Source of the DNA: an uncultured Bacteroidota bacterium
Lineage (GTDB): Bacteria > Bacteroidota > Bacteroidia > B-17B0 > Aurantibacillaceae
Direction: 5' to 3'
Length of the DNA: 64,000 nt
NCBI GenBank assembly: GCA_937873155.1
Contig: CALMVZ010000027.1
Location: forward strand, 248,001-312,000
Positions within the stretch are counted from its first letter, which is position 1, and every line of letters starts with the position of its first letter. The translations under genes were made by a program, and so were the position numbers. Below the pieces are notes generated by a model, which was given only the letters and a program-made list of their open reading frames with translations, did no database searches and was not told the DNA's origin. Positions 14,567 to 26,965 of the stretch are shown one piece after another.

Positions 14567-15824
14567 AATTCCAGTACGCTTTGTTGTTATTTATAGAACC
14601 GATCACTTTCCCTTGCAGGTTTTTTCCTGTGAAAGGAGAGTTCTTTGATTTTGAAAGAATTTCTTTTTCTGTCAGCGAAGTTTCACCATTGGTGGTGAAG
14701 AGAGTCAGGTTCGCTTTTTCGCCTTCTTCTAGTTTCGGTAATTCTAATCCTAAGATCTTATATGGATTTGTAGTAAGTGTTTCAATTAAATTCTCGCTTT
14801 CACCTTTCAGTGCAGTGTTGGCTGTTAAGAATGCAGTTTGTAAAGCTATGATACCGTTATCTGCCAGGTCAAATTCAAGATCTTTACATTCTATATCCTG
14901 CGGTCTGTGATCACTCACCACCACATCTATAATTCCATTCTCTAATGCTTTGCGGACAGCTTCCACATCTTTTTTACTTCTCAGCGGAGGATTCACTTTG
15001 TAATTCGTATCGAAATCCGCAAGAACCGAATCATCCAGCAGTAAGTTGTGCGCAGCCACGCCGCAGGTAATTTGCAGGCCGTTAGCTTTTGCTTTTTTGA
15101 TCAATTCCACACTTCCTTTAGTGCTGATGGTCGGGATATGTAATTTTCCGCCCGCGTATTCCAAAACAGAAATATTTCTTTGTAACATTATTTCTTCTGC
15201 AAGAGCAGGAGAGCCTTTTAATCCTAAACTCGTTGAGGTTTCACCTTCATTCATTTGTCCGCCATGCGAAATGCTTTTATCATCGCAGTGCGTGATGATG
15301 AAACTGTTGATGTTATCAGCGTACTGAAGTGCTCTTAATACAAGTCCTGCATCTTTCACAGGTGTTTTGTAATCGCTATAAGCAACTGCACCCGCCAGTT
15401 TCATGTCGTACATTTCCGAAAGGTCTTTTCCTTCCTGGTTCTGGCTCAAAGTCCCGATCGGGTAAACATTTACTAAATTGTTTTTCGCGCGGTTGATCAC
15501 GTATTCAATTTGCGCTTTGTTATGGAGTGGGGGATTAGTTCCGCTTACCACACACACCGCAGTAAATCCTCCGGCTGCTGCGGCTTTTAATCCGCTTTCC
15601 AGGTCTTCTTTATGTTCAAATCCGGGATCGCAAAAATTCGCCTGCATGTCTAACCAGCCGACAGAGACCATAAGGCCTTTCTCTTCGATGGTCTTTACAT
15701 CCCTTGCTTTAATTTCTTTATTGATCTGTGTGATGGTTCCGTTTTCAATTAATAGGTCAACGGTTTTGTTATGGAAGCTGCTTTGGGGGCAGATGACTTT
15801 AGCTTGCTTGATTAATACATTCAT
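14565..15824 (-). CDS. Dihydroorotase-like amidohydrolase with missing metal ligands
   Basis: 419 residues, with the full length and block order of class I dihydroorotase (step 3 of pyrimidine synthesis, carbamoyl aspartate to dihydroorotate). Recognisable blocks are GWLDM....CDPGFEHKEDLESGLKAAAAGGFT, ITHCDDKSISHGGQMNEG, PALAEE, GSVELIKKAKANGL, a VNPPLRS segment and SDHRPQDIECK. However the HxH metal motif is Gln61-Ala-Asn63, the expected HVST is PTIST, and TPHH is AAHN. It may be a non-catalytic partner or paralogue, as with pseudo-dihydroorotases bound to aspartate transcarbamoylase, or have changed chemistry. Confidence 0.8.
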   Translation of the reverse strand: MNVLIKQAKVICPQSSFHNKTVDLLIENGTITQINKEIKARDVKTIEEKGLMVSVGWLDMQANFCDPGFEHKEDLESGLKAAAAGGFTAVCVVSGTNPPLHNKAQIEYVINRAKNNLVNVYPIGTLSQNQEGKDLSEMYDMKLAGAVAYSDYKTPVKDAGLVLRALQYADNINSFIITHCDDKSISHGGQMNEGETSTSLGLKGSPALAEEIMLQRNISVLEYAGGKLHIPTISTKGSVELIKKAKANGLQITCGVAAHNLLLDDSVLADFDTNYKVNPPLRSKKDVEAVRKALENGIIDVVVSDHRPQDIECKDLEFDLADNGIIALQTAFLTANTALKGESENLIETLTTNPYKILGLELPKLEEGEKANLTLFTTNGETSLTEKEILSKSKNSPFTGKNLQGKVIGSINNNKAYWN

Positions 15825-15826
15825 GT

Positions 15827-15840
15827 TTCGGCTACGCTCA
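15827..15840. repeat. TTCGGCTACGCTCA element
   Basis: Variant of the TTCGAC..GCTCA family, immediately upstream of the ATG at 15824 of the dihydroorotase-like gene and between it and the BatA-domain gene. Confidence 0.4.
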
Positions 15841-15849
15841 ACACAAGTT

Positions 15850-17898
15850 TTACTTTAAAAATCGTATCAGTGCTATTTCTATGGCTATAAAAGCCAGCGT
15901 GAAGATAATAAATAATTTCCAAAGTTTCACATTGCCGCTTATTTCAGCCACAGAGGCGGTTAGCGACTTCTCCGAAGCCACCAGGTTCTTGAATGAAATA
16001 AGGTTATTCTCAGCAATGCTTTTTTCTATCTCTTCATTGGTAAAGAACTCCAAACCTGACTCCAACCGGTTATAATTAAAGGCGGCCGATTGAAGGTCTA
16101 TGCCTTTATGGGTGAGTTTATAGAACCCGGGATTCGTGATCTGGTTCTGGGTATAAACATTCAGACGGTTATTGTTCACTCGGATCTCCGGAATGACATC
16201 AAACTTGTTAGTTGTTTCAGTTAAATGAACAGGCTCTTCGCTTTTTTCTTTAAAGGCATTCAGGCTGATCACCGAATTACTTTGCGTAAAATAATAAAGC
16301 GGCACAGGTTTTAAACTATTGATCGCCATTTTATAAATAGTTGGAACAAATAACGCATGCTTGCAAAAATTAGTAAAGCTTTCATCCAGCGAACTGCTGA
16401 ACACATATACTTTTGCGTTTTGAATTGACGCTTCACCAACCCATGTCTCACCGTTAATTAATTTCAGTACAGGTGTGATATTATTTTTAGAACTCAAATT
16501 GAAAGTGTAATGTTTTCTAACAACAGGTAGATCCATCCGTTCATCGATCTTATCAAACACACCTTCATAGAATCCGGTTTTGAAATCTGTTTTCTCTACT
16601 TTTAATCGCGATGTATCCAACGCTGAAATGAAAGGAAGGTTCAATGTTTTATAGAACTCGTTGTAATTTTGGGTGTTTGTTTTTGCAGCAGGAATGATCG
16701 CAAGATAACCGCCGTTCGAAACATATTTGTTCAATTCTGCAATTAAGCCTGAAGAAAAATTCTCAATTTCATTCAGCACAATTAAATTGGAGGTGGCGAA
16801 TAAAGCATAATCAATCGCGTTCTCATTATTCTCACGGAAGTTGAACAAACTGTCATTCTGCATTAAGGTTTTAAAATGCGTTCCTGTTTTTGAATTCGGG
16901 CCATTTATAACAAGCGCCGAAATATTCAATTTGGAATTGAAAGAGAAATACAACTCATCATCAAATACGATAGGGTAATCCTCAATTTTCAGAGAACAGA
17001 AATTAAATCCTTCTTCCTTGCATTCAAAGGTCATTTTGGTTTCTGCTTTCGAATTGGCATCTGCATTGTAAGAAGCCAACGCAACCTGCTGTTTATTGAT
17101 GAAGAGTTTGATAGTTCCGTTCTCAACCGCCTGGTTACTCTTGTTCCAAATCCGGATGTTTAATTTCTGAATGATCCCTTTTTGCTGCACCGGCGTTTCA
17201 AACCAACAGCTATCGATGTAAATATTATTGTTGTTATTTGCTGCTAACGGAATTAATGTTGAGCTGATCAAGGTATCCGCTTTCAGGTTCTTAAAATCTG
17301 AAACCGATTTCTGAAAATCGCTGATGATGAATTGACGCAGGTCTTTCGCTTTACTGCCTTTTAAAAAATCTGCCTGACGTTTAACAACCGATGACAAAGG
17401 CTTCACCGCCGCCGAAATTTTAACTTCAGTAATTGCATCTTTAATTTCTTCTTTCGATAACAAACGTTGGTGTTTCCCTTCAAAATCATTGGTTAGTAGC
17501 ATGAATCTATCTGCATTCCCGAAAGCATCTACAATTTCATTCGCTCTTTTTTTGGCATCGCCCAATAAAGTACCGTTCTTGTTCAAACCTTCCATCGTGA
17601 AGGAGTTATCGATATAGATCCCGATGGCTTTGTCGCCTGTTCTCACTTTGGCGGTCTTATCTGTAATTACGGGCTGGGCAAAGGCTAAAACGAGGCATGT
17701 AATGGCTAAAATCCGCGCTAATAAAATTAAAAGCTCTTTTAAACGTGATTTCGACTGACTTTCCTGTTTTAATTCGCGTAAAAACTTTACGTTTGTGAAA
17801 TAAACGGTCTTGTATTTCCTGAAATTGAATAAATGAATGATAATAGGGATCGAGATCGCAAAAAGGGCATACAGAAAAGAAGGAAATACAAAACTCAT
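15850..17898 (-). CDS. BatA-domain (aerotolerance regulator N-terminal) membrane protein
   Basis: 682 residues. The N-terminus MSFVFPSFLYALFAISIPIIIHLFNFRKYK, followed by VYFTNVKFLRELKQESQSKSRLKELLILLARILAI, is the BatA N-terminal domain. A von Willebrand-like region follows (AIGIYIDNSFTM, about 92-103, resembling the metal-site DxSxS in shortened form), then a long periplasmic part and a C-terminal membrane helix (about 660-680). Such proteins often belong to Bat or MoxR-associated clusters in Bacteroidota. No MoxR or other Bat gene is adjacent. Function is unproven. Confidence 0.85.
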   Translation of the reverse strand: MSFVFPSFLYALFAISIPIIIHLFNFRKYKTVYFTNVKFLRELKQESQSKSRLKELLILLARILAITCLVLAFAQPVITDKTAKVRTGDKAIGIYIDNSFTMEGLNKNGTLLGDAKKRANEIVDAFGNADRFMLLTNDFEGKHQRLLSKEEIKDAITEVKISAAVKPLSSVVKRQADFLKGSKAKDLRQFIISDFQKSVSDFKNLKADTLISSTLIPLAANNNNNIYIDSCWFETPVQQKGIIQKLNIRIWNKSNQAVENGTIKLFINKQQVALASYNADANSKAETKMTFECKEEGFNFCSLKIEDYPIVFDDELYFSFNSKLNISALVINGPNSKTGTHFKTLMQNDSLFNFRENNENAIDYALFATSNLIVLNEIENFSSGLIAELNKYVSNGGYLAIIPAAKTNTQNYNEFYKTLNLPFISALDTSRLKVEKTDFKTGFYEGVFDKIDERMDLPVVRKHYTFNLSSKNNITPVLKLINGETWVGEASIQNAKVYVFSSSLDESFTNFCKHALFVPTIYKMAINSLKPVPLYYFTQSNSVISLNAFKEKSEEPVHLTETTNKFDVIPEIRVNNNRLNVYTQNQITNPGFYKLTHKGIDLQSAAFNYNRLESGLEFFTNEEIEKSIAENNLISFKNLVASEKSLTASVAEISGNVKLWKLFIIFTLAFIAIEIALIRFLK

Positions 17899-17957
17899 AA
17901 GACCATAAATTTACTAAAACCAATAACCATAAACAACTAAGAAACCATAGTAACTAT

Positions 17958-18056
17958 CTCTGTGTAACTCCTAAACTCAGTGCCCCTGTGTTGAAAGTCG
18001 GGCTTCTCCAAAAAAGAAAGACGGATTTTTCAACACGGAGTGACAGAGAAACAGAG
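17958..18056 (+). repeat. Dispersed stem-loop element, copy 1
   Basis: A 99-base element whose left arm (43 bases) and right arm (34 bases) match the element at 26869-26965, on the other strand, with three and two differences respectively, while the roughly 20 bases between them are unrelated. Inside, CCCCTGTGTTGAA and TTCAACACGGAG are inverted repeats, so the conserved parts form a stem and the variable part a loop. It lies between divergent genes. Confidence 0.7.
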
Positions 18057-18096
18057 ATGCGCAGAGTAACCATAACCCAAACCACTAAAACAACCA

Positions 18097-18128
18097 TCTC
18101 CGAACTCCGAACTACCAACTACGAACTA
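18097..18128 (+). repeat. Reiterated-word leader (CGAACT..CCAACTACGAACT)
   Basis: Near-tandem copies of the words CCGAACT and ACTACCAACTACGAACTA end right before the ATG at 18130. The same words occur at 22731-22752, before the gene at 22817, and in complement at 41463-41493. Confidence 0.45.
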
Positions 18129-18129
18129 A

Positions 18130-18765
18130 ATGAACTCCACAACCGCCATAATAGGAAAGAACCTCGTCCTCATAGCCCTGGTCGTAATAACCGTCATGAG
18201 CATGTTCCAGTACGTGTTCAGTAACAGCACCCTTTTAATAGTGCAAATAGTAATGGGTTTGGTATACGCTCTGTTCAGCTATTTCGAGTACAACAACACG
18301 GCTTATAAAGCAATGCTTCCCGTAGAGCGGTATTCGTATTATCCAGGGAGTTTTTATACATTCCGTTTTTTAAAGATCGGTATCTATTTAACCTTTGGCT
18401 TGTTGTTGGCTGCATCTCCGAGCGGTGTTAGTATTTTGTATCCTGTTTGCCTGGCTTTGGCTTTAACGGAGATCATTATTTCTTTGTTAAAGTATTATAA
18501 AAAACTCTGTTTCGTGAATGTTTACGCCAATTACATTTTAATTGCCCTCGAAGAAATGGAAAAGATCTTCGCCACCGAAGTAGAAAGCGTAGAATACCGC
18601 CACGACATTTTTTACCTGATAAAAAAGAACGGCAAAAGCACCATGATAAAAACTTATTCCATCCAGGACAAAGACGTCTTCATCAACAAAATGAAAGACT
18701 GGATCGTGAATAATGATGTGAAGATAAGTGATGAGAGTGCTGCGAGGTTGAAGGCGATTGGGTAG
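18130..18765 (+). CDS. Four-helix membrane protein with soluble C-terminal domain, unknown function
   Basis: 211 residues. Four hydrophobic segments lie at about 10-30, 34-51, 78-96 and 100-120. The C-terminal 85 residues are soluble, starting after the basic YYKKLCFVNVYANY segment, and end MKDWIVNNDVKISDESAARLKAIG. The topology resembles bacterial YcxB-like proteins, but no motif supports the assignment. The last 25 codons recur, mostly with synonymous changes, at 20200-20280 downstream of the STAS genes, so a second gene of this family probably once existed there. Confidence 0.7.
   Translation: MNSTTAIIGKNLVLIALVVITVMSMFQYVFSNSTLLIVQIVMGLVYALFSYFEYNNTAYKAMLPVERYSYYPGSFYTFRFLKIGIYLTFGLLLAASPSGVSILYPVCLALALTEIIISLLKYYKKLCFVNVYANYILIALEEMEKIFATEVESVEYRHDIFYLIKKNGKSTMIKTYSIQDKDVFINKMKDWIVNNDVKISDESAARLKAIG
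18691..18765 (+). repeat. Gene-end repeat, intact copy
   Basis: The last 25 codons of the membrane protein. Partner of the remnant at 20206-20280; the two share 28 identical bases (18733-18760 and 20248-20275). Confidence 0.85.
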
Positions 18766-18846
18766 GTGATACTCTCTTCGTTGCATGTATCCTTGCGATT
18801 TTCGTATCAGGTTTATTAAACTATATTTGTATTACAGTTTGATATT

Positions 18847-19761
18847 GTGGAAATAAAAATACCTAATAGATTCTCAGACAATTTTGGTGAACCCTTGAAT
18901 TATATAATTAAGCAGTTAATTATTATTAATCAGGAAAATCCAACTAAATTGATTTTTGATTTTTCCGGATCAAAGTTTATTTCTCCTTTTATTATTGGAA
19001 GTATAATTGCAGTGACAAATCATTTAAGGCGAAAAGGAAAGACTGTAAGTTTTAAAGTGGATGGAAATAGTAATGTCACTAATTACTTTGAAACAATCTG
19101 CTTTCCTAATGGTTATAATTTTGAGGGTTTGTCATCAGCAGAAATGAATGCCAAACTGGAGGAGTATGGTTTAAAGACTTTTATTCCTTTAGTTCTTTTT
19201 CCAACAGGAGCAAATCAGGCTGAATCAACATTAAGAGAGAATGTATTATCAGCAATTAATTCTATTTTAAAAAAGCAATTAAAACTTGAGGGGAGTATTC
19301 TTGAAGCGGTTTATTATTTGATTGACGAATTAACAAATAATATATCCGACCATTCTTCTTCTGAAAAAGGAATATTATTCGCCCAATTTTATCCAACAAA
19401 AAACTATATGGATATTTGTATTATTGATTATGGGAAAGGGATAAGACAAACTTATTTGGATTCCGGAAAAGCAAATCCAAGCACTGATGAGGAAGCCATT
19501 GAATTTGCTATAAAGGGAAAATCCACAAAAGATCAATCTATTAGTCGGGGATTTGGTATATCAACCAGTAGAAATATGATAACAGATGGATTAAAAGGAA
19601 AGTTTTTTATATATTCAGGCAACGCATTGTTTTATCAAAACTCAGAAAAACAAGAAATTATTTCTTTACCTCAAGAAGCTAATTATCAAGGCTGTATGAT
19701 AGCTTTAAGGGTTCCGATCTTACCTAATTCACAATTTAATTTTTATAAGTACACGCAGTAA
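18847..19761 (+). CDS. STAS-like plus HATPase protein (putative regulatory kinase)
   Basis: 304 residues from a GTG start. Residues about 30-75 look like a STAS fold (TKLIFDFSGSKFISPFIIGSII). Residues about 145-290 form a GHKL ATPase domain: N-box LIDELTNNISDHS (Glu161, Asn165, His169), G1 box DYGKGI (194-199) and G2 box RGFGIS (234-239). Such proteins act as anti-sigma-factor-like kinases or molecular switches. The small STAS-like protein encoded 47 bases downstream could be its partner. Both genes are visibly richer in A and T than their neighbours, and they interrupt a region flanked by a duplicated gene end. Phosphorylation of the partner is inference. Confidence 0.8.
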   Translation: MEIKIPNRFSDNFGEPLNYIIKQLIIINQENPTKLIFDFSGSKFISPFIIGSIIAVTNHLRRKGKTVSFKVDGNSNVTNYFETICFPNGYNFEGLSSAEMNAKLEEYGLKTFIPLVLFPTGANQAESTLRENVLSAINSILKKQLKLEGSILEAVYYLIDELTNNISDHSSSEKGILFAQFYPTKNYMDICIIDYGKGIRQTYLDSGKANPSTDEEAIEFAIKGKSTKDQSISRGFGISTSRNMITDGLKGKFFIYSGNALFYQNSEKQEIISLPQEANYQGCMIALRVPILPNSQFNFYKYTQ

Positions 19762-19808
19762 CTTATTTTAACTTGGATAAAAAATAGAAATTTAGTAACT
19801 TTAAAATC

Positions 19809-20165
19809 ATGAAGCCAACAAAGAAAATATTGGTATCTAATAAGGAAAAGAACTTTTTAGTAAGTAGAGAGGCGGCAAGTACCCTTTTTAATGAATTAAA
19901 CTTTTCAGATTCTGATTTTGAATTGGATTTCAGTAATGTGGAATTTATTTCTAGGTCTTATGCCGATCAGTTCTATAAATTGAAAGATGATTTGGAAAAA
20001 AGATTTAATACAAAAATCCACATAATCAATGCGAGTGAAGAAGTAATAAACATGCTTCATGTTGTATCAAAAACACAAAATTTGAACGAAAGGAATTTCG
20101 AAAAAATCCCTGTGTATAGATTTTCTAAAATGGATAATCTTTCTGATTATCTTTTCTCAATTTAA
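19809..20165 (+). CDS. Small STAS-like (DUF4325-type) protein
   Basis: 118 residues. The core FELDFSNVEFISRSYADQFYKLKDDLEKRF is typical of STAS-like DUF4325 proteins: a strand ending in a conserved DFS/V segment, then FISRSYADQF (about 45-54) where anti-sigma-factor antagonists carry a phosphorylatable serine. A serine is present here in SRS. A second block, KIHIINASEEVINMLHVV, completes the alpha/beta fold. It follows the HATPase gene in the same direction and probably forms a two-gene unit with it. The target is unknown. Confidence 0.78.
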   Translation: MKPTKKILVSNKEKNFLVSREAASTLFNELNFSDSDFELDFSNVEFISRSYADQFYKLKDDLEKRFNTKIHIINASEEVINMLHVVSKTQNLNERNFEKIPVYRFSKMDNLSDYLFSI

Positions 20166-20199
20166 TTTCTAAATCACCGGACTTGATTGCTAAACCAGA

Positions 20200-20280
20200 A
20201 GCAAAATGAAAGACTGGATAGTAAACAACGACGTGAAGATTAGTGAGGAGAGTGCTGCGAGGTTGAAGGCGATTGAGTGA
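20200..20280 (+). pseudogene. C-terminal remnant of a second copy of the 18130 membrane protein
   Basis: Reads S-K then MKDWIVNNDVKIS..ESAARLKAIE and a stop, matching the last codons of the 18130 gene. Of the differing codons, about seven are synonymous and only two or three change the residue (Asp to Glu, Gly to Glu, Asn to Ser). The last 28 shared bases are identical. There is a stop three codons upstream and no start or membrane part, so it is a remnant. Synonymous divergence means it evolved as coding DNA before truncation. Confidence 0.75.
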
Positions 20281-20311
20281 TTTTTTTAAAGTGCTATTGT
20301 AGAATTATAGT

Positions 20312-21382
20312 ATGAGTAAAATAACTTATTTATTTGGAGCTGGAGCAAGTTGGGAGTCGATTCCAGTAGTAGGTGAATTGGAAAGAGCATTCCAAATTGT
20401 AAAAGAATGGAATGAAGAGATTCATAAAAGTATCCCGCAAAAGACCTCTTATTCTGATGGCGAAAAAAAAACAATAAGGTCATGCAAAACCTTTGATGCT
20501 TTGCTACAAACTATTTGCTTTAATACCCCAATCTACAAAACAATAGATACTTTCGCAAAAAAACTAACTATCACTGATGATATACATGATTTACATAATG
20601 TCAAAGCAGCATTAAGTTTGTTTTTTACTTTATGGCAGGAGAGTTCGATAAGGGACATTGAATTCGAACTACTGAAGAAAAATGGAAGAAAGTTTAAAGA
20701 AATCGATACTCGTTATTTTGGATTATTAACTAACTACCTTCAAAGGGATAACGGAAAAATAATCCTTGACCCTAATGTGAATTTCATTAGCTGGAATTAC
20801 GACACTCAACTGGAGAGGTCTCTTGCATTTATACTTGACAAGTCAGTGAATGATATTCCTAATCTATTTAATATCCATCCTTTTAATCAACAAGAAACTC
20901 CTCAAATAATTCATTTAAACGGAGTGGCTGGTTATTATAAAACTGAAAGCAATAATGCTAATTTATTTCGCGAAAAGAACCCGTTAGGAAATAGGCCACC
21001 AAAAGAAGTATTAAAAGATCTTGTTGATTTCATTGGGTCAGTAGAAAAAATGAGTATTAATGTTGATGAATATTTTACATTCGCTTGGGAAAGCGATAAA
21101 ATTAACAGGGCGGTAACTGAAGCAGAAAAAATACTTTCAGAGACGGATACACTTGTTATAATTGGTTATTCTTTTCCGAATTTCAATAATGAAATTGATA
21201 AAAAGCTTCTAGCAATATTTTTAGAGCAAAGCAATAGAAAGAATAACTTAAAAGTTTATTACCAAGACCCTAGAGCAAACAAAACTCTTTTATCGAAACG
21301 TTTTGGAATTGATGAGAGTATCATCGAAATTGATTCAACTAATATGGATCAGTTTATTTTACCGCTTGAGAGAATTTCTTAA
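20312..21382 (+). CDS. SIR2-like NAD-binding protein (candidate NADase)
   Basis: 356 residues. The N-terminal ITYLFGAGASWES gives the NAD-binding GAGAS motif (9-13). The SIR2 signature appears as FISWNYDTQLER (Asn162, Asp164) and the catalytic-type histidine as IIHLNG (His201). Near the C-terminus VIIGYSFPNFNNEID (about 283-296) closes the domain. Proteins of this SIR2_2 type occur as effectors in antiphage systems (for example Thoeris ThsA and DSR-like proteins), where they destroy NAD. There is no recognisable partner domain within the protein; the STAS/HATPase pair lies just upstream. The gene is AT-rich compared with the backbone. Confidence 0.82.
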   Translation: MSKITYLFGAGASWESIPVVGELERAFQIVKEWNEEIHKSIPQKTSYSDGEKKTIRSCKTFDALLQTICFNTPIYKTIDTFAKKLTITDDIHDLHNVKAALSLFFTLWQESSIRDIEFELLKKNGRKFKEIDTRYFGLLTNYLQRDNGKIILDPNVNFISWNYDTQLERSLAFILDKSVNDIPNLFNIHPFNQQETPQIIHLNGVAGYYKTESNNANLFREKNPLGNRPPKEVLKDLVDFIGSVEKMSINVDEYFTFAWESDKINRAVTEAEKILSETDTLVIIGYSFPNFNNEIDKKLLAIFLEQSNRKNNLKVYYQDPRANKTLLSKRFGIDESIIEIDSTNMDQFILPLERIS

Positions 21383-21641
21383 CACAGATGTCGCGGATTT
21401 GTAACCCCGCCAGCGCAGCCTCGATAACTATCGGAATGCAATTGGCGCTAAACAGCTCTTATTTCCCCACATTAAAAAAAGTCCTTGCGAAGGGACGTGG
21501 GCCAGCCGGAAAATCCGCGCCGGCGGGTAGCATCGCGCGAGGAATCGGATTTTCTTCCCACTCTACCGGTGCCTGAGCAGCCAGTGTTAAGCCTTGTGCG
21601 AGTCGAAGGCACTTTTCATCAGGCAAAAAAGTAACATAGAA
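21383..21641. other. GC-rich intergenic segment with inverted words, no gene
   Basis: About 260 bases, abruptly richer in G and C than the AT-rich SIR2 gene before it. It contains GCGGATTT near 21391 and AAATCCGCGCCGGCGGG near 21510, an inverted relation, a GATAACTATCGG word and a palindromic GCCTT..AAGGC element (21591-21610). An open frame of 62 codons (21388-21576) is present but has repeat-like composition and no family. It may be a repeat element or decayed mobile DNA at the island edge. Confidence 0.5.
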
Positions 21642-22265
21642 TTATTCTTGTGGATCACTAGCTTTCTTTTTCTTTAGTTGGCGAGATACGCTTAAAGCTA
21701 GTAATTGATTATAAGATGCTTTAGAGACTAAAGGAACAGCGCCCCTCACTGGCAATAAAGAATGGCTAAGTCTTAATCCGAGTGCCCACTTCTCATTTAA
21801 TGCGCAGCCAATACCAACGTTGAATGAAAGTTCGCTTCTGGTAAATGGATGTTTATTTACCAGGTCGGGCGTTTCATTACTATATAAATGTTCACGATAA
21901 TTGATCATATATCCCAAACCAGGACCAAATTCAAAATAGATCTTCTTCCTGTGGTATTGAAAAAGGACAGGCATTTCAAAATAATGGAGGTTGACAAAAT
22001 GCGTACTCTTTCCGGCTCCCCGAACACCGATTCCTTTATCTAAAAGTAAAAGTTCCGTTTGAGCCGTCCATTTTTTGTTCATTTTTAGCTGGAACCAGAA
22101 TCCTCCTAACAAGTTTCCGCCGGGTTGACTTTTAGTAAGATCTCCCGCAAGCGTATGAAGCGAATACCCCAGCTTAAGCCCAACGCGATATCGTGATTTG
22201 TAGCCATGCTGAGCGCACAACCAGAAACAATTAAAAATGGCTATAATAAGAAGAATTTTTTTCAA
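21642..22265 (-). CDS. Outer membrane beta-barrel protein (PorT-like family)
   Basis: 207 residues. A signal peptide (MKKILLIIAIFNCFWLCAQ) is followed by alternating amphipathic strands: RVGLKLGYSLHT, KKWTAQTELLLLDKGIGV, HYFEMPVLFQYHRKKIYFEFGPGLGYM, FNVGIGCALNEKWALGLRLSHSL. The strand set YFEMPVLF..FEFGPGLGY is typical of the small PorT-like outer membrane proteins of Bacteroidota. The Lys/Asp/Glu C-terminus lies outside the barrel. It faces the accessory segment and is monocistronic. Role unknown. Confidence 0.82.
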   Translation of the reverse strand: MKKILLIIAIFNCFWLCAQHGYKSRYRVGLKLGYSLHTLAGDLTKSQPGGNLLGGFWFQLKMNKKWTAQTELLLLDKGIGVRGAGKSTHFVNLHYFEMPVLFQYHRKKIYFEFGPGLGYMINYREHLYSNETPDLVNKHPFTRSELSFNVGIGCALNEKWALGLRLSHSLLPVRGAVPLVSKASYNQLLALSVSRQLKKKKASDPQE

Positions 22266-22816
22266 TACATTAATAACGTAATTTTCTTCGAAAAATTATA
22301 CTAAACTAAATTTTAAAAAGCATTCGTTTACACAGTTTTCCGGACACTCTCTAAACCTTGCGATGGCAAAAGTAAACCTCGCGATAGCAAAAGTAAACTT
22401 CGCGATGGCGAAAGTAAACCTTGCGATAGCCAAGAAAAACCTTGCAATTGCATCCATCAAACTTACGGTTACAAAACTGGACTTCGGCGATCTCCCGCCC
22501 TTGCATTCCTTTTCATAAAAGAAATGCCGGTCTGAAAACGTACACTAACGCCCCTCTCTGCTTGTAGAGAGGGGTTGGGGGTGAGTCTTTCGAAGCTACG
22601 AACTCTTTTAACCGCACTTCGCTTTTGCGTAAACGCAAAATTCGTGCGGAAGGTGGGTGGTGGTCCCGTTCCCAGGATGAAATCCCGGGTTACAAACATT
22701 GAACCCCTCCGGGGTTAAAAGACATTTTGTAATCTCCGAATTACCAACTACGAACTATACTAAATCCCCCGTTCTGGGTTAAGCACCTCTCCGATCCAAT
22801 AATTACTTTAGTATAA
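22266..22816. other. 550-base intergenic region with repeats
   Basis: No conserved gene. It contains a degenerate 21-base tandem repeat (22353-22478), a hairpin CCCCTCTCT..AGAGAGGGG (22551-22574) followed by GTGAGT, a Bacteroidota-style word repeat at 22731-22752, and a run of T-poor GC-rich text around 22620-22710. The repeat region gives a possible 51-codon frame starting at 22363. The region separates two convergent-divergent units and looks like an accumulation site for small repeats. Confidence 0.6.
22353..22478 (+). repeat. Six-copy 21-base tandem repeat encoding a heptad pattern
   Basis: Units start at 22353, 22374, 22395, 22416, 22437 and 22458 and decay toward the right. Unit 1 begins AAACCTTGCGATGGCAAAAG. 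Because 21 is a multiple of three, one frame reads NLAMAKV, NLAIAKV, NFAMAKV, NLAIAKK, NLAIASI, KLTVTKL. The frame is open from 22282 to the stop at 22516-22518, with the first ATG at 22363. No spacer structure of a CRISPR kind is present. Confidence 0.75.
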
Positions 22817-23362
22817 ATGAAAACGGTCAAACTTGTCTCAACAGCGTTACTAAGCGCAATACTATTAATCAGCTTTAAACCCAAAAACGATCTTATGACC
22901 AACACAACTTTAAAACTGAGCGATTCAACACTTTTTGATTTTTGGGTTGGCGATTGGGAAGCATCCTGGAACGAGAACGGAACTGTAAAATTACTTGGCG
23001 AGAATCATTTGAGCAAAGAATTTGGAGGCTGGGTCATCCGCGAAAAATTCAAAGTGAATGATGGCGCATCCAAAGGTTTTGAAGGTGGGAGCTGGACCGT
23101 ATTTGATAAGCAAAAGAAAAAGTGGTTTCAAACCTGGGTTGACAATAATGGCGCCTATATGGCATTTGAAGGAAAGCTCGATGGAGAGAAACGGATATTC
23201 GAAAGGAATACCATAGATAAAAAAGGGAAACCTGTTTTGCAAAGAATGGTTTTCAGGGATATTACAACCGAAAGTTTCACATGGGATTGGGAAAGTTCGG
23301 CTGACAATGGAAAAACATGGACACTAAGTTGGCAGATACTTTATAAAAGAATAAAAAAATAA
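22817..23362 (+). CDS. Exported DUF1579-like protein
   Basis: 181 residues. A signal-like N-terminus (MKTVKLVSTALLSAILLISF) without a lipobox is followed by FDFWVGDWEASWNENGTVKLLGENHLSKEFGGWVIREKF, resembling the start of DUF1579-like domains (FDFWVGDW...N.I...LGG). The remainder has alternating strands with W residues (WTVFDKQKKKWFQTWVDNNGAYMAFEGKLDGEKRIF). Substrate or ligand is unknown; lipocalin-type fold is likely from the pattern. An upstream word-reiterated leader lies at 22731. Confidence 0.65.
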   Translation: MKTVKLVSTALLSAILLISFKPKNDLMTNTTLKLSDSTLFDFWVGDWEASWNENGTVKLLGENHLSKEFGGWVIREKFKVNDGASKGFEGGSWTVFDKQKKKWFQTWVDNNGAYMAFEGKLDGEKRIFERNTIDKKGKPVLQRMVFRDITTESFTWDWESSADNGKTWTLSWQILYKRIKK

Positions 23363-23531
23363 AGTAACAGGCATCAAAGACCTTAACCCAAAAAAGCAGG
23401 ATCATTTGTTCCAAAATGAACCTTTCTGCATTTAAAGTGTATACCCTATGTAACTTAACACAATTTAACCGTTACAGCTTAGCAGGAATAAAAACTTTAA
23501 TGAATTAAAAGTAGTTTTAGGCACCCCATTT

Positions 23532-25961
23532 ATGCACAAAATAAAGATCGTTTGCATCGGTTTAGTTACGTTGTTCAGCGTACTCAGCAATTTTTCCTTC
23601 TCACAATGTTCAATCAGCGCTAAAGTCACTGATAGTTTAAATGCCCCGGTTCCTTTCATTACCGTAGCACTCTTAAAAACAGACAGCACTATTTACAAAG
23701 GCGAGATCACTGACGATAAAGGTGAGTTCTGTTTTTCAAAACTAAAGAAAGGTGCTTACCTGGTTAAGATCTCAGCTATCGGTTACGCGAATTACTTTAG
23801 CGAAAAAATAAACTACGATAGTTCTTCAACAATTAAATTAAACGATATCGCTCTTAAAAAAAGCGGTGTAACACTTGGAGAAGTTTCTGTCAGCGTTATT
23901 AAGAATCCTATCGAATTCAAAGGTGGGAACATAACAGTCAACGTTGAAGATAGTCCGCTTGCCGTTGGGAATAGTGCCTGGGATCTGATAGCGCGATTAC
24001 CCGGTGTAATGGTAGAGGGTGATAACATCAGCATACAAGGTAAAGCCGGAGTACGTGTTTATATAAATGATAGAGTGCAGCAATTCTCAGGCGCACAGCT
24101 AAGTAATTTTTTACGGAGCATGAATGCTTCGGTCATTGAAAAAATTGAGATCATCATGAATCCGCCGGCCCGCTACGATGCTGCAGGAGGTGCCGGCATC
24201 ATCAACATTAAAACAAAAAAGATAAAAATAACAGGCCCTAGCGGCGGACTCAACTACACTTTCTCGCAAGGATTCTATAACACCAACACCGGAGGCTTTT
24301 CATTCAACTACAAAGCAAAAAAAGTAACTTTCTTCAGTAACATTAGCAGCTACGAAGGTCTCTTATACCAGGAAACCCTTAATGAAAATCATATCACATT
24401 TGATGGTAAAACAACAACACTGAACCAAAAGTCGTATGAAGTTGATGCCGCAAAATATGCGACAATTGATGTTGGTACCGACTGGTACTTTAATAAAAAA
24501 AATACCATTGGTGTAAAAGGCCAATTTGTTCCCGGGAAAGCCATGCGTACTTATAATGGAAATACTTACATGAGTGATAACAGTCTCGGCTATGATCGCC
24601 TCTTGTATAACCGCCCTATCGGCAACGATTGGTTCTTTGCTAATTTCAATTTCAATGCTGAACATGTCTTCGATACGGTCGGCAATACAAAACTTAAATT
24701 CTCGACCGATTATTACGGTCCGTATTACGATAATTATTATGCCTTATACCAGAACCGTTTTATCGGAAAAGATGGTTTAGATACTATGTCACCCCGGATT
24801 TTCAAGTCCACCAATCTTATCGGCATCAACATTTTTGCTTCACGTTTAGACTTTGAAACAAAATTCGCTAAAGATCTTAGCCTGGAAGCAGGAGTAAAAT
24901 ATAGCGACCAATCCGCATGGAGCGATTACACTTTAGAGAACCAAAATGAATTAACAGGAGAGTTTGTTGTGGATAGTATCTTCACCAATAAATTCAAGTA
25001 TAACGAACAGATCAGTTCGGGTTATGTGAGTATCGATAAACAATATAAGAAAATTAATTTCAGATTGGGATTGAGAGGAGAGAATACAAATATTCAAACC
25101 GAAAGCGTCACCAGTAGTATTAAATATTCACGGAATTATTTTAATGTATTCCCGACTTTAAGTTTTGATTACAATCCTAACAGGGATCATTCCATTTCAA
25201 TGGCCTACAACCGCAGGATCAATCGTCCGGATTATAATTCCTTTAATCCATTTCGTCAGTTCAATAATATTCTAAGTTCAGGTGAAGGAAATCCTTACCT
25301 GAGTCCTACTTATGATAACAATTTTAATTTTAATTACGTTTATAAAGGGAAGATCTCCAATAACCTTTCTTATGCAAATGTTGAACATCCTATCCAGCAG
25401 TACATAACGCAAAATGATTCTACTAAGGAAACTGTCGCTCACATCACCAACATGAAAGAACTTAATATCATCCGCTATAATTTATTTGTGAGGCAGGAAA
25501 TTAAAAAATGGTGGATCGTTTCATTCTTAGCAGGCGGATATTATATCGATTATAACGGCACGGTGAATGGATCTAATTATGCTGCGCAAGCAATTCCATG
25601 GTACACCCGTTTAACTAATATTTTCATCATTAAGAAAAATACCAAAGTAGAAGTATCCGGTTTTTATTGGAGTCCATGGATCGGAAACACATCTGTGTTC
25701 CTGCATAGAGAAGGGTTAAGCATTGCAGTTAAACAATCCTTATTAAAGAATACTTTGAATATTTCGGTGGCACTGAACGATGCTTTTTTCACGGAGCAAT
25801 TCAGACAGAAAGTCGATTTTCAGAACCAGAAATGGCTGCTTGTTGAAGCTCATGATTCAAGAAGGTTGAATGTAAGTGTAAGCTACAACTTCGGAAAGAT
25901 CAAAGCACAACAGCGGGACACGAAGGAAAATGATGAGGAGAAAAGAAGGCTGGGTCATTGA
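23532..25961 (+). CDS. TonB-linked outer membrane beta-barrel protein with carboxypeptidase-regulatory N-domain
   Basis: 809 residues. After the signal peptide comes a regulatory-like beta-sandwich (about 27-110, CSISAKVTDSLNAPVPFITVALL and ITDDKGEFCFSKLKKGAYLVKISAIGYANY), then a plug-like region (LPGVMVEGDNISIQGKAGVRVYINDRVQQFSG) and the OMP_b-brl_3-type barrel from about 240. ARYDAAGGAGIINIKTK is diagnostic for that family. It probably transports or binds an unidentified substrate at the outer membrane. No SusD-like lipoprotein is adjacent, so it is not a standard polysaccharide locus. Confidence 0.9.
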   Translation: MHKIKIVCIGLVTLFSVLSNFSFSQCSISAKVTDSLNAPVPFITVALLKTDSTIYKGEITDDKGEFCFSKLKKGAYLVKISAIGYANYFSEKINYDSSSTIKLNDIALKKSGVTLGEVSVSVIKNPIEFKGGNITVNVEDSPLAVGNSAWDLIARLPGVMVEGDNISIQGKAGVRVYINDRVQQFSGAQLSNFLRSMNASVIEKIEIIMNPPARYDAAGGAGIINIKTKKIKITGPSGGLNYTFSQGFYNTNTGGFSFNYKAKKVTFFSNISSYEGLLYQETLNENHITFDGKTTTLNQKSYEVDAAKYATIDVGTDWYFNKKNTIGVKGQFVPGKAMRTYNGNTYMSDNSLGYDRLLYNRPIGNDWFFANFNFNAEHVFDTVGNTKLKFSTDYYGPYYDNYYALYQNRFIGKDGLDTMSPRIFKSTNLIGINIFASRLDFETKFAKDLSLEAGVKYSDQSAWSDYTLENQNELTGEFVVDSIFTNKFKYNEQISSGYVSIDKQYKKINFRLGLRGENTNIQTESVTSSIKYSRNYFNVFPTLSFDYNPNRDHSISMAYNRRINRPDYNSFNPFRQFNNILSSGEGNPYLSPTYDNNFNFNYVYKGKISNNLSYANVEHPIQQYITQNDSTKETVAHITNMKELNIIRYNLFVRQEIKKWWIVSFLAGGYYIDYNGTVNGSNYAAQAIPWYTRLTNIFIIKKNTKVEVSGFYWSPWIGNTSVFLHREGLSIAVKQSLLKNTLNISVALNDAFFTEQFRQKVDFQNQKWLLVEAHDSRRLNVSVSYNFGKIKAQQRDTKENDEEKRRLGH

Positions 25962-26841: not shown

Positions 26842-26868
26842 TTGATCGTTCCGGATTCCTCTGTGAAC

Positions 26869-26965
26869 CTCTGTTTCTATGTCTCTCCGTGTTGAAAAAT
26901 CCGAATCCCTTTGTTGAGTACACGACCTTCAACACAGGGGCACTGAGTTTAAGAGTTTCACAGAG
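26869..26965 (-). repeat. Dispersed stem-loop element, copy 2 (inverted)
   Basis: Read on the minus strand it matches 17958-18056 over both arms, with the middle unrelated. It occupies most of the space between the starts of TIGR02757 (26841) and the end of the MFS gene (26990), about 28 bases upstream of the TIGR02757 ATG. Confidence 0.7.

Follow-up and report, generated by a model that had tools for sequence, protein, structure and literature searches.

Within the 64-kb stretch of DNA analysed here (the window, by which we mean the whole stretch at its full length), an anchor gene that we call gene X is followed by an ATPase gene, the gene of its STAS-like partner, a second, stranded X end and, starting 31 nt past it, a SIR2-like gene. 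The gene order can thus be written as X-[end]-ATPase-STAS-[end]-SIR2, and the features of the locus are the following:

18130–18765, plus strand: gene X, the anchor gene, 211 aa, without a named family (ORF; no family above cut-off)
18687–18763, plus strand: proximal copy of the repeat, the end of gene X (repeat search, codon comparison)
18847–19761, plus strand: ATPase of GHKL type, 304 aa, GTG start (ORF, alignment, phrog_3364)
19809–20165, plus strand: STAS-like protein, 118 aa, partner of the ATPase (DUF4325 and STAS, below cut-off)
20202–20278, plus strand: distal copy of the repeat, the stranded end of gene X, 24 codons and TGA (20206–20280; repeat search, codon comparison)
20312–21382, plus strand: SIR2-like gene, 356 aa, second low-GC cargo (SIR2_2, below cut-off)
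21642–22265, minus strand: OMP beta-barrel gene, at which the variable interval ends on the right (Pfam; syntenic in the nearest relative, G002)

The last 25 codons of gene X constitute the first copy of the repeat. The gene has no family above cut-off in Pfam or NCBIfam (the latter gave nothing useful for the window proteins), and its designation as a membrane protein is the label of the initial annotation, judged from hydrophobic stretches. GC content is 0.309 over 18766–21382 versus 0.395 in 15000–18765 and also in 21642–25000; by blocks it ranges from 0.29 to 0.34 inside the low-GC interval and from 0.35 to 0.44 outside, and the SIR2-like gene itself has 0.319. The stranded X end therefore has low-GC DNA to its left and to its right, and this flanking DNA is probably foreign. 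The STAS and HATPase genes had been regarded as an insertion from the outset, and they do look inserted, being low in GC, sporadic in occurrence and missing at this place in G002.

The motif TATATTTG at 18822–18829 (plus strand), 25 nt ahead of the ATPase gene start, fits the consensus of the Bacteroidetes -7 box, TAnnTTTG. No box of this type was found ahead of the STAS or SIR2-like gene of the window; at other loci (handles beginning with L denote loci and those with G genomes), such boxes precede the ATPase gene in L059, L061 and L062, and none is present in L060, L076 and L077. A search for a third X end past the SIR2-like gene (21383–21900) gave only 7- and 8-nt matches. Two other repeats occur in the surroundings: a tandem repeat with a 21-nt period by the OMP gene (22352–22477), consisting of five overlapping 42-nt copies that decay to 64% identity, and a 112-nt stretch between a BatA-like gene and gene X (17958–18069), which has an inverted copy (84%) at 26856–26965 and no match at that place in G002.

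The Two Copies of the Gene X End

The initial annotation had noted that the 25-codon end of the gene at 18130–18765 recurs at 20206–20280. This recurrence is real, the copies forming a 77-nt direct repeat (18687–18763 versus 20202–20278) with 8 mismatches and 89.6% identity. It is the sole direct repeat of its class (50–400 bp, at least 80% identity, copies 0.4–6 kb apart, E at most 1e-8) across the 64-kb window; a scan of 614,838 bases with the same limits found repeats of this class in 10 of 39 sources. Homology begins 4 nt ahead of an in-frame ATG, with an identical run of 18 nt (18687–18704 and 20202–20219), and a second identical run of 28 nt occupies 18733–18760 and 20248–20275. This longer run had been described as the final 28 bases, a description that does not hold, as the run stops earlier and is followed by a changed last residue codon and a changed stop.

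With the stop counted, nine of the 25 codons differ between the copies: six are silent sense changes, two change the residue (D/E and G/E) and one is the stop (TAG versus TGA). The nucleotide differences at codon positions 1, 2 and 3 number 0, 2 and 8, respectively. The silent changes in sense codons are six and not, as counted earlier, about seven. When eight random changes were simulated, two or fewer altered residues arose with P = 0.001, or 0.004 with a transition bias, and the pattern of a coding copy is therefore not put down to chance. The silent-biased differences and the stop kept in both copies suggest that both evolved as working gene ends; both thus look like once-working coding gene ends, in agreement with the original proposal that the remnant is a former coding gene end (six silent versus two altering codons, P 0.001).

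The Inserted Genes and Their Products

The ATPase matches phrog_3364 (9e-41), a family of phage proteins with unknown function. Pfam gave no match in the window ATPase; among its relatives, HATPase_c is found above cut-off at L063 and below cut-off at L077 and L061. The STAS-like partner matches DUF4325 (8.2e-4) and STAS (1.6e-3), both under the curated cut-off, and in relatives of the partner DUF4325 passes the cut-off at L063 and reaches it at L077. Residues D160, E161, N165, D194, G196, G198, G235 and G237 of the ATPase and S48 and S50 of the partner are invariant in all five aligned pairs (12 pairs were found), and residues typical of GHKL ATPases are thus retained in each of the five. The N-terminal part of the 304-aa ATPase is predicted to be STAS-like. 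A fold model from five sequences (mean pLDDT 71) gave weak fold matches to GHKL ATPases, the best PDB match having an E of 8.6e-4 and an rmsd of 20.5; because the model is of low confidence and the rmsd of its best match is so large, the ATPase is called here only GHKL-like. Searched by sequence, the PDB gave CheA as best match of the ATPase at E 0.045 or worse, and chance-level matches only for the partner.

SpoIIAB/SpoIIAA and RsbW/RsbV are pairs of a kinase and a STAS protein that act by partner switching. By analogy, a partner switch of kinase and STAS protein is the likely, although putative, working principle of the pair. PADLOC matched DrmA (6.1e-16) to ATPase residues 57–264, at positions 53–247 of a 1750-position model, perhaps reflecting an ATPase domain shared with that model rather than a DISARM gene; its other matches were PDC-S09 (2.5e-3) and, for the SIR2-like gene, SIR2 (6.6e-4). 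In Pfam, the SIR2-like gene matches SIR2_2 (2.4e-4, under cut-off). It was found in 3 of 100 genomes searched (own included) and could, by its family, be a candidate defence gene. No bracketing repeats were seen around three SIR2 relatives, a result of little weight, as both flanks were available only at L104, the upstream side being limited to 124 nt at L103 and the downstream side to about 20 nt at L105.

Gene X in Related Genomes

Gene X was present in 31 of 60 genomes searched (E 1e-3; some incomplete; the window's own included). Thirty of the 31 genomes have one match each, and the second match in that of the window is the remnant itself. None of the 31 carries a full second copy of the gene, and a DNA search of the window's own genome returned the two repeat copies alone. 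Likewise, in the X loci of 16 relatives no end of gene X is repeated downstream; the 12–49 nt matches listed look like chance, and one locus (L047) gave merely 625 nt to search.

In the nearest relative, G002 (JAGNIU010000015, L031), the flanks match the window, with BatA-like and dihydroorotase-like genes on the left and the OMP gene on the right. Between X and OMP, G002 contains 3.26 kb of unrelated DNA, in which neither the ATPase+STAS pair nor a SIR2-like gene nor another copy of the X end was found. Examined for an uninterrupted site, G002 shows a single X end that is followed by different DNA. Six other ORFs of at least 80 aa, all on the minus strand, lie behind gene X in G002 (L031:8637–11898); the content behind X therefore differs between the two genomes.

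Of the 25 third positions in the repeat, 8 distinguish the two copies, and the fraction over the whole of gene X between the window and G002 is 0.354; the divergence of the copies is therefore close to that of orthologues from two species. The copies agree against G002 at 7 of the 17 sites that vary, suggesting that their lineages are a little closer to one another than either is to G002. The two copies have 13 and 12 differences to G002, and with this genome as outgroup neither appears clearly native.

Occurrence and Bracketing of the Gene Pair

The ATPase and STAS genes are conserved as a pair at other loci, and the distribution of the ATPase gene is sporadic. It was found in 9 of 100 genomes at a loose cut-off, five of them strong, in 10 of 395 genomes of a class sample and in 3 of 395 of a phylum sample overlapping the class sample (own genome included). 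In four families, chosen because each had an ATPase gene, the counts are 1/46, 1/36, 1/1 and, for the window's own family, 3/87 (own or centre genome counted). Protein searches of phages and plasmids gave 12 and 4 records, respectively, all below 60% identity; viral contigs contained one weak relative with no bracket, and three viral loci were without bracket. In the archaeal prophage psiM100 (L073, NC_002628.3 6786–9578), the "inserted fragment IFa" holds relatives of the ATPase and of the STAS protein. IFa begins within a threefold tandem 125-bp repeat, which lies upstream and was the only repeat seen there, no bracket extending across the pair. Among the matches listed in the literature searched, no paper described the two genes together as acting in defence or as being mobile, and none, by title or abstract start, dealt with such gene-end cassettes; one listed paper, on a Francisella phage, mentions DUF4325 a single time.

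When direct repeats (minimum length 60 bp, minimum identity 85%) were sought from 1 kb upstream to 2.5 kb downstream, 5 of 11 pairs proved to be bracketed (window, L061, L076, L077 and L081), or 6 of 12 with L063. The window prompted this test and L063 was added after its repeat was known; minus these two, 4 of 10 pairs are bracketed. Under the same test, repeats were found at 3 of 458 random places, all in the repeat-rich L081, and around 2 of 179 neighbouring ORF pairs (L079, L103); Fisher's test of 4/10 versus 2/179 gives P 6e-5, a comparison with general genome sequence and not with other inserted genes, by which the pair is not made special among inserted genes. Places adjoining the cassette were left out of both controls, the repeat-rich L076 is in neither control, and weak ATPase matches in G028, G078, G079 and G082 were left out of the repeat counts. 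No bracketing repeat was found in 6 of the 12 pairs (L059, L060, L062, L078, L079 and L080). At L076, where the pair is followed by just 275 bases, and at L081, both of them repeat-rich records, the brackets are not gene pieces but non-coding interspersed repeats. The other four of the six brackets are pieces of a neighbouring gene, namely the 3′ end of X, the 3′ end of a recombinase gene (twice) and the start of a penicillin-binding-protein gene. Direct repeats have been described, in the excerpted text of one study, at 10–18% of small variable segments of E. coli and other genomes, mostly with lengths below 30 bp (PMC2884548).

At L063 (G042), two intact Phage_integrase-family genes lie directly ahead of the ATPase+STAS pair, which is followed by an Rhs-like fragment, a duplicate of the 57-codon end (stop included) of the second recombinase gene, and a PIN-domain gene. 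Between the displaced recombinase end and the intact one there are nine silent and two altering codon differences, and, compared by sequence, the arrangement is the same layout as that of the window. L061 is found on another contig of the same genome and its ATPase is of another subfamily; here, two copies of that same recombinase end, the left one frameshifted, bracket the pair. Being parts of one genome, L061 and L063 may share one history. Along L063:4216–13157 and L061:9381–12773, copies of a tyrosine-recombinase 3′ end, Rhs-like fragments and small cargo genes (ATPase+STAS, PIN) alternate, with a further frameshifted recombinase end at L063:4216–4364. The fragments by the pair in L060, L061 and L063 are presumably Rhs-like; they have no Pfam match in L063, and RHS_repeat is matched below cut-off (5.3e-3) in L060. 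At the latter locus (L060:6049–11013, G089), the gene of a 548-aa protein that gave no Pfam match is lined up on a single strand with two genes of the Phage_integrase family and the ATPase+STAS pair.

At L077 (G408), an exact 105-bp repeat brackets a 2-kb insert in which the pair represents the only ORFs of at least 60 aa. The repeat consists of 56 nt upstream and 49 nt of the listed penicillin-binding-protein ORF, whose product matches Transgly (4.6e-56) and Transpeptidase (1.2e-18). G781, the one informative genome of seven relatives, has one uninterrupted copy at this site, and in G780 the contig ends at the repeat. The L077 repeat is exact and lies in a 230-contig assembly, which leaves room for an assembly fault. 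A further repeat was seen at L103:4621–6734 (G068), where an ORF of about 60 codons occurs twice (about 88% identical) around methyltransferase-like and ORF6N genes and close to a SIR2-like gene. This footprint is similar to that of the window and lies around other genes, suggesting therefore a general process that is not tied to this pair.

Proposed Origin of the Stranded Gene End

An event that explains these loci must add cargo by a gene and duplicate a gene piece of 77–174 bp; it must also allow for two differing, once-functional ends and need no recombinase in the insert. Circularised foreign DNA that recombines by one crossover in a shared piece accounts for all four. Our preferred reading, to which we assign a probability of about 0.6, is that the incoming DNA came from a related species, carried that species' own X end beside the cassette and was integrated by homologous recombination, probably by a single crossover. 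The identity of the donor, the number of crossovers, the sequence of events and the status of either copy as native are inferred parts of this reading. The donor would have been a related species with the ATPase+STAS pair directly behind its own copy of gene X, and would belong to another species because the divergence of the copies matches species-level divergence. In the simplest form, a fragment with a piece of the X end and the cassette would circularise, and one crossover would take place inside the shared gene end, for which the 28-nt identical run may represent the crossover tract. The product would be an intact gene X with the cassette behind it, and a second X end (20202–20280) left on the far side, ahead of what had been the earlier neighbour of X, the SIR2-like gene. 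With linear DNA, homologous recombination on one side combined with end-joining on the other would give the same product, and the far copy would be the recipient's old gene end; such one-sided recombination is the route proposed for the type VI secretion arrays discussed below (PMC5361080). The similar bracketing by gene pieces of 77–174 bp at other loci of the pair lends support to this mechanism. Neither the donor state (X, pair and one X end) was found among the relatives searched, where the genus comprises 8 genomes and the absence is weak, nor was a genome found with the recipient state, in which X is followed by the SIR2-like gene alone.

The displaced gene end with silent differences is also the layout found at icd, and this would fit an integrase acting in trans that inserts a cassette with a replacement gene end at the X end. 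The gene pairs of the Phage_integrase family directly ahead of the ATPase gene in L060 and L063 point in the same direction, as does the repeat of L061 and L063, which consists of the recombinase 3′ end itself. However, tblastn with both L063 recombinases (E 1e-3) gave no match in the 64-kb window, although a distant recombinase could be missed in this way, Pfam identified no recombinase among the eight proteins of 14.6–23.4 kb, and no inverted repeat with exact arms of at least 6 and a gap of at most 12 is present in 18660–18800 or 20180–20310. Moreover, the brackets vary by locus (3′ end or gene start, 77–174 bp), unlike a fixed core. Site-specific insertion at X is for these reasons unlikely. 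A gene-end attachment site had been the second choice of the initial annotation; it comes nearer to the facts than the paralogue that was favoured there, but the recombinase and the inverted repeat that it calls for were not found at the site. The divergence upstream of the identical run, which had been held against an insertion, loses its force, since an insertion from a related species with its own gene end predicts it.

The loss of a tandem paralogue down to its 3′ end would agree with the silent-biased divergence of the copies. Their agreement against G002 at 7 of 17 variable sites could likewise be accommodated by a duplication of gene X more recent than the separation from G002, the second copy then diverging until the cassette replaced all but its last 25 codons. 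Yet none of the 31 genomes with the gene has the full second copy that would speak for such a history, and a course of events in which gene X is duplicated, the cassette inserted and a stretch of about 186 codons deleted is less economical. Nor does it explain the brackets at other loci of the pair, formed by a recombinase 3′ end or the start of a penicillin-binding-protein gene, notably the L077 insertion with its uninterrupted G781 site; at these other bracketed loci, a second full copy of the bracketing gene is absent from the stretch read. We therefore consider a lost paralogue to be rather improbable.

The pair may also be the cargo of a cassette-addition system of Bacteroidia, for which the tyrosine-recombinase pairs of G042 and G089 would provide the machinery in trans. 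Successive cassettes would be added behind a gene whose end is the joining site, each leaving a copy of that end, and the system would be integron-like in outcome. Such a cassette-specific system is a minority reading, which we regard as distinctly doubtful. Least probable is a target duplication, in which a long staggered break was filled in upon insertion and the identical copies then drifted. The exact 105-bp duplication of L077 with an uninterrupted site in G781 would suit it, but at the window the four changes of the distal copy polarised with G002, although this copy would have been unconstrained, are two silent ones and a two-base stop swap, and 77–174 bp exceeds the duplications that bacterial transposases are known to make.

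Significance of the Footprint

Small defence-like cassettes can occur without an adjoining integrase or transposase, and it is often hard to tell how they arrived. Where a gene end has been displaced and differs by silent changes, it can be read as a footprint. Here it suggests that the cassette arrived with a foreign copy of the end of the neighbouring gene, from a donor that, judged by the divergence of the stranded end, would be roughly as distant as another species. The further loci at which fragments of other genes bracket this pair provide a set on which the mechanism can be tested.

Comparison With Known Systems

When phage 21 or e14 integrates at icd, the gene receives a new end from the incoming element, and its former end, which differs by silent changes, is displaced. 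These elements differ from the insert studied here in their integrase, phage genes and inverted repeats, which were not found at this site. Rhs C-terminal displacement leads to arrays with strings of displaced 3′ ends. Loci of the pair resemble these arrays in that Rhs-like fragments adjoin the pair in L060, L061 and L063; at the window, in contrast, no Rhs gene was found among the insert-side ORFs run against Pfam, and the displaced end is no toxin tip. Rhs displacement arrays are mentioned in the excerpted text of a study on the type VI secretion system (T6SS) of Vibrio cholerae (PMC5361080).

In E. coli, according to the excerpted account, linear DNA was circularised and integrated by a single crossover (PMC3240628). 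By its nature, a single crossover would flank the insert with direct repeats of the shared piece and need no recombinase gene inside it, which is the arrangement seen at the window. In that account the DNA was laboratory plasmid DNA, whereas at the window the event is deduced from sequence, concerns another class and probably took place between species.

The T6SS effector modules of V. cholerae undergo stepwise displacement, for which homology-facilitated illegitimate recombination was proposed in the text excerpted from that study (PMC5361080), the mechanism there being itself a proposal. The displaced gene is in that description the effector itself, whereas at the window an unrelated anchor gene stays intact, and the window cargo, an ATPase/STAS pair and a SIR2-like gene, is unlike the T6SS effectors described there. 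In both cases, as far as the excerpted description goes, no integrase is known, a module enters at a conserved stretch, the old 3′ end is shifted back together with the older cargo, and the arrays grow stepwise.
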